Shown: in pieces, positions 3,099 through 34,249 of the stretch
How positions within the stretch are numbered: position 1 is the stretch's first letter
Layout of the letters: each line of letters opens with the position of its first letter
Source: Clostridia bacterium
GTDB lineage: Bacteria > Bacillota > Clostridia > Christensenellales > Borkfalkiaceae
Length of the DNA stretch: 36,856 bases
Assembly (NCBI GenBank): GCA_017545865.1
Contig: JAFWXO010000027.1
Coordinates: 1 to 36,856, forward strand
Direction of reading: 5' to 3'
Translations under genes and position numbers: made by a program
The notes under the pieces: generated by a model
What the model was told of the DNA's origin: nothing
Database searches by the model: none
Seen by the model: only the letters and a program-made list of their open reading frames with translations

Positions 3099-3512
3099 TT
3101 AACGCTTGGAGAATTGAGGAGCGCGACGAGCCTTTTTAAGACCGTATTTCTTTCTTTCCTTCATTCTCGGATCTCTCGTTAAGAAGCCTGCTTTCTTAAG
3201 CGCTGCTCTAAGTTCAGGTTCGCTAACGATAAGCGCTCTTGCAATACCGTGACGGATTGCGCCCGCTTGACCAGTGAAACCACCGCCAACAACGTTTACA
3301 AATACGTCGTACTTAGTTAAAGTATCGGTTAAAACAAGGGGTTGTTTAATGATGAGTTTAACGGTTTCAAGATCGCAGTAATCATCAATGCTTCTCTTGT
3401 TGATAACGATGTTACCTGCGCCACCCGGAATAAGTCTAACTCTTGCAATTGCCTTTTTTCTTCTACCAGTTCCCCAGAATTGAAGTTTCTTTTTGCTTGC
3501 TACTTTAGCCAT
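3099..3512 (-). CDS. rpsI: 30S ribosomal protein S9
   Basis: 137 aa, usual size. S9 sits in the head of the small ribosomal subunit, and its basic C-terminal tail reaches toward the P-site tRNA. Typical sections are [14 protein letters not shown] near the N-terminus, [19 protein letters not shown] in the middle, and the end [20 protein letters not shown] finishing in FSKR. It lies 12 nt after rplM, the pairing found in almost all bacteria. Confidence 0.98.
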
Positions 3513-31922: not shown

Positions 31923-32018
31923 GTGAATAAAGAAAGGAAAAATGCAATATTAAACTATCTTTATCCAACGGCTGAGATTGACCTTGTTGGTCATCGAAGT
32001 CTATCGGCTTTGCAGTAA
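31923..32018 (+). CDS. Possible 31-aa peptide divergent from the XRE gene
   Basis: A GTG-started frame, MNKERKNAILNYLYPTAEID onward, 31 aa, ending inside structured repeat copy 2. It has a good GGAGAG ribosome-binding site 4-6 nt before the GTG and the promoter at 31855-31883, both of which suggest a real gene start. The end looks cut off by the repeat, so it may be the stump of a longer gene. It overlaps the glycosylase gene tail to tail. Confidence 0.4.
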   Translation: MNKERKNAILNYLYPTAEIDLVGHRSLSALQ

Positions 32019-32035
32019 CGCAGTATTGCGCCGTT
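31967..32035. repeat. Structured repeat copy 2, at the 3' end of the glycosylase gene
   Basis: The core 31980-32033 matches 13910-13962: GACC-TTGTT-GGTC, then AT[CT]GAAGTC, a 10-nt variable piece, then an identical 22-mer starting GCAGTAACGCAG. Here the variable piece (TCGGC, 32004-32008) pairs with GCTGA (31971-31975), and AACGG (31967-31971) can alternatively pair with CCGTT (32031-32035). Confidence 0.7.
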
Positions 32036-32846
32036 TATAATGGAACAAATATTGTTGGAAATAGCCTGAATTTTCCTTAAACTCATTTTCAAACCACTCG
32101 CAAATTTTCGCCCTATCGGTTAACGTTCCGTTAAAATCTTCGAGGTAGATTTTATAAATCCAAGTGTCAACTGGGAAAGAGTTAGTTGTAGAAAAGCCGA
32201 AAAGCATAACGCAAGACGCAACTTTATCGCCAACGCCCGTTATTTTAGTTAAACTTTTGTAAAGTTCGCTTTTATCAAGCGATTTTAGTTTGTCAACGGA
32301 AAAGCCGTTTTTTATATCGCTTAAAAGTTTGATAAAATACGTTCCACGATAGCCAAAGCCCATTTCCTTATAGTCGCTTTCGGAAAGATTTGACATCTGC
32401 TTTGCAGTTGGAAAGGCAAAATAGTCGCCAAACGGCGAAGAAATTTTAGCGCCCACTTTTTCACAAAGTTTTTCTATGGTTTGGGTAATTCTTTTAATGT
32501 TGTTGTTTTGCGAAATTATAAAGGAAAAGAGCGTTTCAAACGGGTCTTGCTTTAAAATTCTAATACCCTTGCCTTGTTTTGCCGACAAAGTTAGCGTTTT
32601 ATTGCCGTAAGAAACGGCGGAATTATAAATTAAGGAATAGTCGGTTGAAAGGTCGAAAAAATTATAGAAATAATCTTTATCATCCGTTTCGATTACGATA
32701 GAATTATCGTTTTCATAAAGGTAGCAAACCTTATCTTTTGAAAAGACGAGATAACCGTTATTAAATTGTTTGTATCTAAATATTTGCCCGCAAGAAAGGG
32801 TGTCAAGCGGATTAAAATATTCTTTTTGAAAAACGATTTTATCCAT
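32001..32846 (-). CDS. 8-oxoguanine DNA glycosylase-type HhH-GPD protein
   Basis: 281 aa. Enzymes of the OGG family remove oxidised guanine from DNA and nick the strand. The helix-hairpin-helix is TKITGVGDKVASCVMLFGF, with the expected catalytic Lys208, and the conserved Asp227 is in FPVDTWIYK. The N-terminal 100 residues fit the OGG N-domain. The normal-looking end (QQYLFHYK) is followed by nine residues and a stop encoded by structured repeat copy 2. A terminator-like hairpin sits just before the start codon and I see no good promoter. Confidence 0.88.
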   Translation of the reverse strand: MDKIVFQKEYFNPLDTLSCGQIFRYKQFNNGYLVFSKDKVCYLYENDNSIVIETDDKDYFYNFFDLSTDYSLIYNSAVSYGNKTLTLSAKQGKGIRILKQDPFETLFSFIISQNNNIKRITQTIEKLCEKVGAKISSPFGDYFAFPTAKQMSNLSESDYKEMGFGYRGTYFIKLLSDIKNGFSVDKLKSLDKSELYKSLTKITGVGDKVASCVMLFGFSTTNSFPVDTWIYKIYLEDFNGTLTDRAKICEWFENEFKENSGYFQQYLFHYKRRNTALLQSR

Positions 32847-32859
32847 AATCTTAAAATAA

Positions 32860-32884
32860 AAAGCGTAAAAGATTTACGCTTTTA
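32860..32884 (-). terminator. Terminator-like hairpin just upstream of the glycosylase start
   Basis: An 11-bp stem, AAAAGCGTAAA with TTTACGCTTTT. On the minus strand it is followed by TTTTTATTTT and then, within about 15 nt, the glycosylase ATG. It would stop transcripts coming from the degV side. Confidence 0.65.
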
Positions 32885-32892
32885 GAGTTAAA

Positions 32893-33074
32893 CGTTTGCT
32901 TTGCAAACGCTAAATTACTTCGTAGCTAAATGTTGCTAACGCAACGCTAAATGCAAAACAAAGTTTTGCGCTGTGGATGTTTTTGAGCTAAATGCAACCT
33001 TTGGTTGCGCTAAATTACTTCGTAGCTAAATGTTTGCTGATGCAAACGCTAAATGCAAAACAAAGTTTTGCGCT
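32893..33074. repeat. Array of eight short hairpins joined by a GCTAAAT heptamer
   Basis: Stems (loops in lower case): GTTTGC-ttt-GCAAAC at 32894; TAC-ttc-GTA at 32916; GTTGC-taac-GCAAC at 32932; GCAAAAC-aaa-GTTTTGC at 32953; GCAACC-ttt-GGTTGC at 32994; TAC-ttc-GTA at 33016; GTTTGC-tgat-GCAAAC at 33032; GCAAAAC-aaa-GTTTTGC at 33055. GCTAAAT occurs at 32909, 32925, 32946, 32987, 33009, 33025 and 33048. I know no named element of this form. Confidence 0.85.
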
Positions 33075-33262
33075 ATTGATTGCTTTTTTCATTTTAAGTT
33101 TATTACAACCAAAATAAGACGTTAAAAACAAATAATAGGGTTCCCGAAAATATTTTGTTTAGCAAAAGATTTTTGGGAAAAAGGAGCAACCGCTTTTTAG
33201 TCTTAGCGTTTACCTTTAGGTTAACGCTTGACAATCTATGCGCGTTGCGACGCTATAACGGA
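33075..33262. other. Remainder of the degV-glycosylase spacer, with two larger hairpins
   Basis: No gene is visible. A long imperfect hairpin (33141-33179; 15 of 17 positions pair, loop TTTAG) and a second one (33205-33228; AGCGTTTACC with GGTTAACGCT, one mismatch) stand here. Neither is followed by a clear T run on the degV strand. Confidence 0.5.
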
Positions 33263-34117
33263 TTATTCTCCGTCGTTGTAGTATAAAATACCGAGAGTAT
33301 GTTCACCACAGTGAGCGCAAATGGTGCAACCTGCGGTGGTTTCGTAAATATTTTCAAAGCCTACGTCAGCGATTGCTTCACGAGCGGCTTCAACCATTTC
33401 GGGAGTTGCGGACGAATAAGTAATGAAACAAATGGACTTATCGGGAGTGTTAAACTCATTTAACACGTCTTTACAATATTTTTTGATAAGAGCGGGCATA
33501 TTTCTACCGATATATTTTTTACCGCTGTGCATCTTACCGTCAGTTACCACGATTTGCGGACGGATACCTGCCGCTTTACCGAATAAGAAAGCAGTTGAAG
33601 AACATCTACCGCCCTTGTGAAGATAATCGAGTTTTTCAACGATAAAACTTGCTTGAACGGCGGGAATTCTCTTTTCGATTTTTTCAACAATAACGTCAAC
33701 GTCGGATTCAGTTTCGGTAAGTTTTCTAGCGTACATCGTTTGAATACCAACGCCCGTTGATAAAGACTTACTGTTAATAACTCTAACCTTACCGCCAAAA
33801 TCTTTAGCAGCGGTAACGGCGTTATTATGAGTTGCGCTCATATCGGAAGAAAGGTTGAAGTGGATAACACAGTCGTAACCCTCGTCTAAAATGGCTTGGA
33901 AACGTTCTTTATAAAACTCGGCGTTTGCGGCGTTAGTTTTTGGAAGAACTTTAGTTTCTTCAACGTATTTAAAAACACCTTCGGGAGTAACCGAACCGTC
34001 GTCAAGATAATCTTCACCGCCCAAAACTATGCCAAGGGGGATAACCTTAATATCGTATTCTTTAAGTAAAGCAGGCGTTAAGTCCAAAACGCTATCTGCC
34101 GAAATTGCAATTTTCAT
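33263..34117 (-). CDS. DegV-family fatty-acid-binding protein
   Basis: 284 aa, usual size. DegV/FakB proteins hold a fatty acid and present it to the kinase FakA for phospholipid synthesis. The N-terminal domain starts MKIAISADSVLDLTPALL, with later NLSSDMSATHNNAVTAAKDF and RVINSKSLSTGVG, and KLDYLHKGGRCSST in the second domain. The protein ends CAHCGEHTLGILYYND, a common DegV tail. No fakA gene is in the window. An AAGGAG site precedes the ATG. Confidence 0.95.
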   Translation of the reverse strand: MKIAISADSVLDLTPALLKEYDIKVIPLGIVLGGEDYLDDGSVTPEGVFKYVEETKVLPKTNAANAEFYKERFQAILDEGYDCVIHFNLSSDMSATHNNAVTAAKDFGGKVRVINSKSLSTGVGIQTMYARKLTETESDVDVIVEKIEKRIPAVQASFIVEKLDYLHKGGRCSSTAFLFGKAAGIRPQIVVTDGKMHSGKKYIGRNMPALIKKYCKDVLNEFNTPDKSICFITYSSATPEMVEAAREAIADVGFENIYETTAGCTICAHCGEHTLGILYYNDGE

Positions 34118-34148
34118 AAAAAATCTCCTTGTTAAAAAAAATTAACTA

Positions 34149-34182
34149 ATAGTATTTTACTAAATACTATGCAATTTGTCAA
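34149..34182 (-). promoter_or_regulatory. degV promoter with palindromic operator over the -10
   Basis: On the minus strand, TTGACA (34177-34182), 17 bp, then TAAAAT (34154-34159). A perfect inverted repeat, ATAGTATTT (34149-34157) and AAATACTAT (34162-34170), spans the -10 box, as a repressor site would. Confidence 0.65.
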
Positions 34183-34249
34183 TAACTTAAAATCTTGCTC
34201 CTTCTATTTTCACAAAACCTTTATATTTTGCTTGTAAATATTGTAAATT

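Follow-up and report, generated by a model that had tools for sequence, protein, structure and literature searches.

The DNA analysed here, hereafter the window, is a stretch of 36,856 nucleotides from a Clostridia bacterium (GenBank assembly GCA_017545865.1, contig JAFWXO010000027.1, positions 1 to 36,856). Between a degV gene and a DNA glycosylase gene it carries a row of short palindromes joined by the heptamer GCTAAAT. What is an array in which the linker is constant while the palindromes vary? We show below that the array is real and is neither a chance product nor a local repeat. We propose, tentatively and with a probability of about 45%, that it is one copy, composed of a joined pair of modules, of a non-autonomous element family that is dispersed in Clostridia, counts the Rfam candidate Gut-1 among its members, and acts as a folded single strand, probably of single-stranded DNA (ssDNA). 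In what follows, the source genome is the 1.59-Mb assembly to which the window belongs; C, G, and L numbers designate its contigs, other genomes, and individual DNA stretches, respectively.

The array is made of two modules of four hairpins

Eight perfect palindromes with stems of 3-7 bp and loops of 3-4 nt lie within 32894-33071, together with seven copies of GCTAAAT, all on the + strand (32909, 32925, 32946, 32987, 33009, 33025, and 33048). A preliminary description made from the letters alone had reported eight palindromes and seven heptamers. It also had nearly all hairpins separated by exactly GCTAAAT, which holds for six of the seven intervals, the fourth being 24 nt long (GCTGTGGATGTTTTTGA plus GCTAAAT). 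It counted eight different hairpins; six are distinct, since TACTTCGTA and GCAAAACAAAGTTTTGC each occur twice. The array falls into two modules of four hairpins, each ending with the hairpin GCAAAACAAAGTTTTGC followed by a cap, GCTGTGGAT or GCTATTGAT, which may bear a likeness to the core site of integrons. The features are as follows.

32894..32908, + strand, module 1 hairpin GTTTGC-TTT-GCAAAC
32909..32915, + strand, linker GCTAAAT, first copy
32916..32924, + strand, module 1 hairpin TAC-TTC-GTA, found again in most GCTAAAT arrays of the source genome
32932..32945, + strand, module 1 hairpin GTTGC-TAAC-GCAAC
32953..32969, + strand, module 1 cap hairpin GCAAAAC-AAA-GTTTTGC
32970..32978, + strand, cap GCTGTGGAT, which in identical or similar form terminates arrays of other linker classes in the source genome
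32994..33008, + strand, module 2 hairpin GCAACC-TTT-GGTTGC
33016..33024, + strand, module 2 hairpin TAC-TTC-GTA
33032..33047, + strand, module 2 hairpin GTTTGC-TGAT-GCAAAC
33055..33071, + strand, module 2 cap hairpin GCAAAAC-AAA-GTTTTGC
33072..33080, + strand, cap GCTATTGAT
32858..32883, no strand assigned, terminator-like hairpin bordering the array on its outer (HP4) side; the sister species G003 has one like it before the glycosylase gene
32001..32846, - strand, neighbouring gene for a DNA glycosylase (OGG_N and HhH-GPD)
33263..34117, - strand, neighbouring gene of the DegV family (PF02645)

A coding origin was rejected, no open reading frame (ORF) of at least 80 aa being listed over the array. 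In a transcript reading through from degV, the array would appear as its ATTTAGC strand.

The array belongs to a family dispersed in the source genome

The heptamer alone is not rare (14 copies in the window, 11.2 expected); it is the arrangement that is rare. A de novo detector, which accepts any 7-mer as linker and hairpins as spacers, found no array in 200 dinucleotide shuffles of 32001-34200. It found none either in 20 shuffles of 156 kb of the source genome, in stretches chosen because they bear arrays, compared to 13 in the real sequence. The suspicion that AT-rich spacers might yield palindrome-heptamer arrays by chance was thus not borne out. An assembly artefact is unlikely because copies are present on 8 contigs of the source genome and in many other genomes.

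The triple-linker pattern gave 22 overlapping matches in the source genome and the linker-pair pattern 36 (one pair, C24:12383, is not a hairpin), while the reversed linker patterns used as controls gave none. BLAST with the array found 16 places. Many intergenic arrays with different stems were to mark an element family according to the preliminary description, and this is what the genome-wide search returned. The copies have the module order and the cap in common, often also the hairpin TACTTCGTA, and are spread over many intergenic sites that are not linked, often adjoining a terminator-like hairpin. The copies of this genome are single arms.

Other linkers are used in the source genome as well, namely GTGATAT, GTTATGA (with GCTATGA), GTTATAT, ATTAAA/ATGAAA, and ATTACATA, and some of these arrays are fused to GCTAAAT arrays. 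Identical GTTATGA-type arrays are found at C12 34045 and 34695, each immediately past its own, different terminator-like hairpin; the strict GTTATGA triple pattern, which misses these two, gave no match in the source genome. In a chain scan of this genome, 10 of 16 chains were judged to be arrays by their constant linker and 6 appeared chance-like, and one shuffle gave 1.

On L073, the array block at C8:51458 is flanked by near-direct repeats of ATAAAAAAAGCATAGGAA, a possible target duplication; the second copy makes up the 5' half of a terminator-like hairpin that is intact. Immediately past the window array (33092-33261) lies another dispersed repeat, about 150 nt long, with copies at C8:51713, C12:11636, and C9:66059 (86-95% identity), and the C8 and C12 copies likewise sit just past GCTAAAT arrays. 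The window also contains SpoIIE and GerA genes, and a spore-forming Clostridia-type bacterium is therefore likely.

The array is absent from the orthologous site of seven sister species

DegV is present in all 9 genomes of the genus. We read 480 nt downstream of degV, recognising the start of the glycosylase gene by eye, and could follow seven of the eight sister species from the degV stop into that gene (the G002 stretch ends after 131 nt). The array is absent in all seven. The gap between the two genes is short and contains a hairpin in G004, G006, and G007, hardly exists in G001, and is occupied by other repeats in G003, G005, and G008; G003 retains a hairpin resembling 32858-32883. Downstream of degV, the sister-species stretches L423, L425, and L429 show other repeats with a recurring CGAGCCTTG..CTTG..TCT.A motif.

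The triple-linker pattern had no match in 60 relatives, the reversed control matching once, in G049. BLAST gave one match in each of three relatives, the best being 44 bp at 89% in G003; weak matches in G031 and G051 were left out of the inspection. Since copies occupy unlinked sites and the array is absent from the orthologous site, we infer from these comparisons that the family is mobile.

Arrays are found in many Clostridia and rarely in viral stretches

Scanning GTDB species genomes gave at least 117 stretches, and the de novo detector recognised hairpin arrays in 50 of the 117. Wherever a title was shown for an array-bearing stretch (38 of 38), the name was of Clostridia type. Twelve genomes picked from this set all contained further copies, with 4 to 82 triples among the matches listed. 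An even sample of the class Clostridia yielded 27 positive genomes out of 291 (19 with hairpin arrays as listed, 4 with other repeats, namely G078, G275, G283, and G332, and 4 not listed), and the control matched singly in 4 of 291. Carriers include metagenome-assembled genomes from the rumen and from other animals, and the longest run has up to 12 hairpin units (L157). One array-rich genome also carries an RT-5 RNA (RF03026) above its gathering score, at L161 4385-4489.

Arrays were found in two of 178 viral stretches, pooled from two scans of which one gave only the matches listed: L282, near the stretch end, and L462, inside a 31.8-kb contig. Phages or plasmids as the usual carrier were therefore set aside, arrays being rare among the viral stretches, yet real. 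BLAST of the window array against phages and of the L118 element against plasmids gave no match. L462 holds a GCTAAAT element and a separate ATGAATT-linker array (1200-1400 and 3179-3244).

Other genomes contain two-arm elements

Oscillospiraceae-type genomes carry the array as one of the two arms of an element: three gctaaat-hairpin units, gctaaat, a centre (TAAATTCGCC..AGC), and then four hairpin-atttagc units. Hairpin types favour set positions in this layout and their sequences differ. The order of hairpin types recurs and the centre is conserved across many families, the centre changing along with the linker class.

Linkers are class-matched between the arms. Among 15 single linker changes, counted in 20 of the 60 extracted rows, none is present on both sides, 14 leave the pair broken, and 1 gives G-U. 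In 14 of 14 two-arm elements folded (15 were selected), the minimum-energy fold, computed with no shuffle control, pairs the linkers arm to arm and is far more stable than the hairpins by themselves; for L118 as RNA, it has -54.1 kcal/mol versus -30.3 kcal/mol for the hairpins alone. A four-way-junction ladder, with the GCTAAAT arm paired to the ATTTAGC arm, is favoured by the energy and by the class matching of the arms. We do not claim it, because linker changes are uncompensated and the window copy is one-armed.

The linker class can also differ at one orthologous site. Beside a gene ending in glycine-methionine repeats, which we take to be groEL-like, the element of G071 is of the GCTAAAT class and that of G076 of the GTTATGA class, with junctions that are the same within one base. 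In G075, an ATGATAT element accompanies this gene, with the left flank displaced by about 2 kb, and no element stands beside the gene in G074 and G077. Of 18 genomes, 5 contain multiple GTTATGA arrays each (control 0). In L189, L420, and L528, at several sites of G071 and G076, a GC-rich insert of about 55-60 nt (TCCTGCCCCTCGGGG... or a close form) replaces one hairpin. On L150 (2717-3112), a TCGATAT/ATATCGA two-arm element directly adjoins a GCTAAAT/ATTTAGC one, and a similar segment containing TATAAT or CATAAT lies on either side of the latter.

The two ends of the element are not alike. After dropping duplicates and short flanks, 33 elements remained; 15 of them have a long, often terminator-like hairpin directly at the right end and 1 has one at the left end, compared to 2 of 660 random places. 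Where a gene lies on the right-hand side (37 cases), it is oriented towards the element in 27. A conserved neighbour gene was not seen, as judged by eye. The end palindrome extends into the end of an ORF in 4 of 32 rows, by 1, 3, 6, and 22 nt, which hints at hairpin-primed copying.

These ends bear on the idea that the arrays are a by-product of replication, in which hairpin-primed template switching creates and perfects the palindromes and microhomology in the linker allows units to be duplicated, lost, and shuffled, with no function and no dedicated mover. The preliminary description had named slippage between palindromes among its options, and slippage or template switching fits part of the data: the palindromes just described, an orthologous internal deletion between hairpins (L388/L520), and the GNA/GNNA loops and skew-locked orientation reported below. 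Against it stand the recurring order of hairpin types and the conserved centre, the matching of linker classes in both arms, and the pair L383/L519, which is identical over 169 bp while the surrounding 100-column windows are 80-93% identical. On balance, we regard this explanation as quite unlikely.

Pairing is kept in the hairpins and the loops have a polarity

To examine the hairpins across elements, we used 18 two-arm elements (18 of the 20 rows of the linker-change set). At six of the seven hairpin positions the outer four base pairs are Watson-Crick more often than in any of 1000 shuffles, for example 67 of 68 versus a shuffle maximum of 53. The exception is the outermost right hairpin, which shows little variation and stays within the shuffled range. 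Between sister species, orthologous hairpins differ by compensated changes, such as TGAGCACAGCTCA to TGGGTGAACCCA, and by loop changes. The unit is shown to be a class-specific constant linker plus a short hairpin of any sequence in which the pairing is kept. The option of a structured nucleic acid, also in the preliminary description, is supported.

That description had further considered an array bound by a protein as double-stranded DNA, that is, GCTAAAT sites with arbitrary spacers. The linker is indeed the sole constant sequence. However, the spacers are palindromes with compensatory changes, their pairing is conserved, and their length varies from 9 to 21 nt across arrays, so that helical phase is not kept; moreover, different linker classes stand beside one gene in sister species. 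Such sites are very improbable.

The loops are polar with respect to the linker. Read as ATTTAGC, the triloops have the form GNA in 50 of 92 cases (reversed, 1 of 92) and the tetraloops the form GNNA in 36 of 63 (reversed, 0), the third base of GNNA being a purine in 18 and a pyrimidine in 18. The GTTATGA class keeps this polarity, with GNA in 12 of 21 and GNNA in 8 of 10 loops and none reversed, in a count that covers 29 of 64 strings, 13 distinct spacers that lack a perfect end-anchored stem having been set aside. In each of the two arms the polarity follows the linker, and hence it lies on opposite strands.

In RNA, GNRA loops have a purine at the third position. A GNA/GNNA polarity with no preference for a third-base purine agrees better with the published rule for DNA than with RNA GNRA loops. 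On the DNA side, d(cGNNAg) is described as a class of stable loops (Nakano 2002, as cited in the part of PMC8373063 consulted). Polarity on opposite strands, together with the lack of a third-purine preference, speaks statistically for recognition of ssDNA.

The family extends the candidate Gut-1

We compared the arrays to Rfam. Gut-1 (RF01706) matches L064 of the source genome at 1434-1509 with 54.8 bits, above its gathering score of 50, over two GCTAAAT and two GTGATAT linkers. This is the one locus, of 11 compared from the source genome, that reaches the gathering score; L063 has 49.9 bits and the others have 28-45 or no match. Up to E = 5, Gut-1 does not match the window array (32840-33270); no match reached the gathering score in the window or in 18 loci of other genomes. 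The right arm of L118 aligns to the whole of Gut-1, with 25.8 bits, under the gathering score.

Gut-1 consists of three hairpins with a repeated heptamer between them, which is the form of the array; the heptamer is GUGAAAU, where the window linker reads GCUAAAU. The statement that no named element has this form is therefore contradicted. In Rfam, Gut-1 is 77 nt long with a single linker and a single strand, whereas the family described here uses several classes of linker, has inverted arms on both sides of a centre, and is present in many copies per genome. It is a much wider, new form of a known but unexplained candidate. In one open-access library, the name and accession of Gut-1 led only to PMC2864571, and the matches listed included no description of linker-constant hairpin arrays.

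This match raises the possibility that the array is a structured RNA. Gut-1 would then be a non-coding RNA or a module of 3' untranslated regions, and the window array a tandem of it in the degV transcript before the terminator, where it could perhaps bind a protein through its linkers or protect the mRNA. Gut-1 is listed as an RNA candidate in the accessible portion of PMC2864571, a sister array exceeds its gathering score, and the window array lies between degV and a terminator-like hairpin; the compensatory hairpin changes and the arm-to-arm folds agree with such a role, as do the sense orientation and the RNA stabilities given below. On the other side, the loop polarity follows the linker onto opposite strands, GNNA loops do not prefer a third purine, the linker changes are not compensated between arms, and copies lie beside different genes (by eye). 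The Gut-1 model is, in addition, the GUGAAAU strand, which is the reading with slightly less stable hairpins. A structured RNA is possible, yet we consider it doubtful.

Other known systems have partial likenesses to the array. CRISPR repeats are about 23-47 nt long and have unique spacers; here the constant part is 7 nt and the spacers are palindromic and recurring. The preliminary description had called the array, with its constant linker and differing stems, the reverse of CRISPR. REP/REPIN elements with RAYT are also short intergenic palindromic units, in inverted doublets, forming hairpins in ssDNA or mRNA and non-autonomous, according to the sections seen of PMC3733652 and PMC3116915. 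The REPs of those sections have a palindrome tagged by a conserved sequence and RAYT transposases, while here the palindromes vary and the linker is constant. The tagged palindrome of REPs (GTAG/CGTC) has no counterpart in the array, whose eight hairpins include six distinct ones and no common palindrome. Inverted doublets may correspond to the two inverted arms of Oscillospiraceae-type genomes; the source genome has single arms. A Y1 transposase gene (PF01797) is absent from the source genome and present in 5 of the 21 genomes searched.

The pneumococcal BOX, RUP, and SPRITE elements are similarly modular and intergenic, with a variable number of modules, stem-loops, and MITE-like features, SPRITE being terminator-like, in the passages available from PMC3049150. 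BOX modules are defined there by sequence models, and the likeness to the array is one of description. The TAACTGA repeats of Beggiatoaceae are direct intergenic repeats of one heptamer, mostly just upstream of start codons, and hairpin spacers go unmentioned in the excerpt of PMC4679880 at hand.

Strand orientation and the weight of the ssDNA reading

At 13 of 13 places of the source genome (12 stretches on 8 contigs), the GCTAAAT reading has a negative GC skew, so that ATTTAGC is on the G-rich strand; contigs C4, C8, and C12 as wholes agree with the array skew. The 13 places omit C24:12383 and the weak BLAST place C29:87189; C12:50326 and C19:25363 hold one or two GCTAAAT linkers, and two places share one stretch. 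ATTTAGC is probably the lagging-strand template. In all 8 informative cases (simple ORF calls), co-directional genes at the flanks likewise have ATTTAGC on their sense strand. Because skew and gene direction coincide, replication and transcription are not separated in the source genome.

In the reading that we prefer, the element would work as a single strand in folded form, recognised through the linker in combination with the loop polarity. This strand would most likely be ssDNA and, in the source genome, the G-rich ATTTAGC strand. A trans-acting factor would copy or move the element, which would insert preferably next to terminator hairpins. It may have another role in transcripts. A Y1 transposase and a reverse transcriptase were both considered as the mover and rejected, neither being found in the source genome.

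Several points weigh against this reading. The source genome (94.85% complete) contains no Y1_Tnp and no RVT_1, and no clean target duplication was established. On C8, an ATATCAC array at 37038 has the reverse orientation to that of the GCTAAAT arrays, and in other genomes the two-arm elements have no skew bias (13 positive, 18 negative). The sense orientation is what an RNA role predicts. The accessible text of Weinberg et al. (PMC2864571) presents Gut-1 as an RNA, not cis-regulatory, and from the human gut only. Judged by sequence, the unchanged 169 bp of L383 are a sign of constraint and not of mere parasitism, and the loop bias could be partly inherited.

The calculated stabilities are not decisive either. 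For 162 hairpins, the ATTTAGC reading is more stable in 43, less stable in 10, and equal in 109 with RNA parameters, and more stable in 49, less stable in 8, and equal in 105 with DNA parameters; both sets favour the pyrimidine-third loops. As modelled, nearest-neighbour energies do not separate DNA from RNA, and we therefore gave the ssDNA reading less weight and its rivals slightly more.

In its fullest form, the proposal is a mobile element that consists of a grammar, a 7-letter class linker plus any hairpin with a GNA/GNNA loop, mobilised as ssDNA by a factor that would recognise the linker and the polarity of the loop, and targeted to terminators, with whole classes interchangeable at one site and with Gut-1 as a fragment of the element modelled from the complementary strand. 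All of this taken together is rather unlikely.

Implications

Gut-1, a candidate that has lacked an explanation since at least 2010 (PMC2864571), now belongs to a family that is widespread, multi-copy, and modular. The two-arm form, the linker classes, and the turnover at orthologous sites offer handles for finding what moves or recognises it: linker-specific binding, empty sites, and loop polarity. If the ssDNA reading is true, the family would be a mobile element defined by its structure and not by its sequence, of a kind that similarity-based annotation tends to miss.
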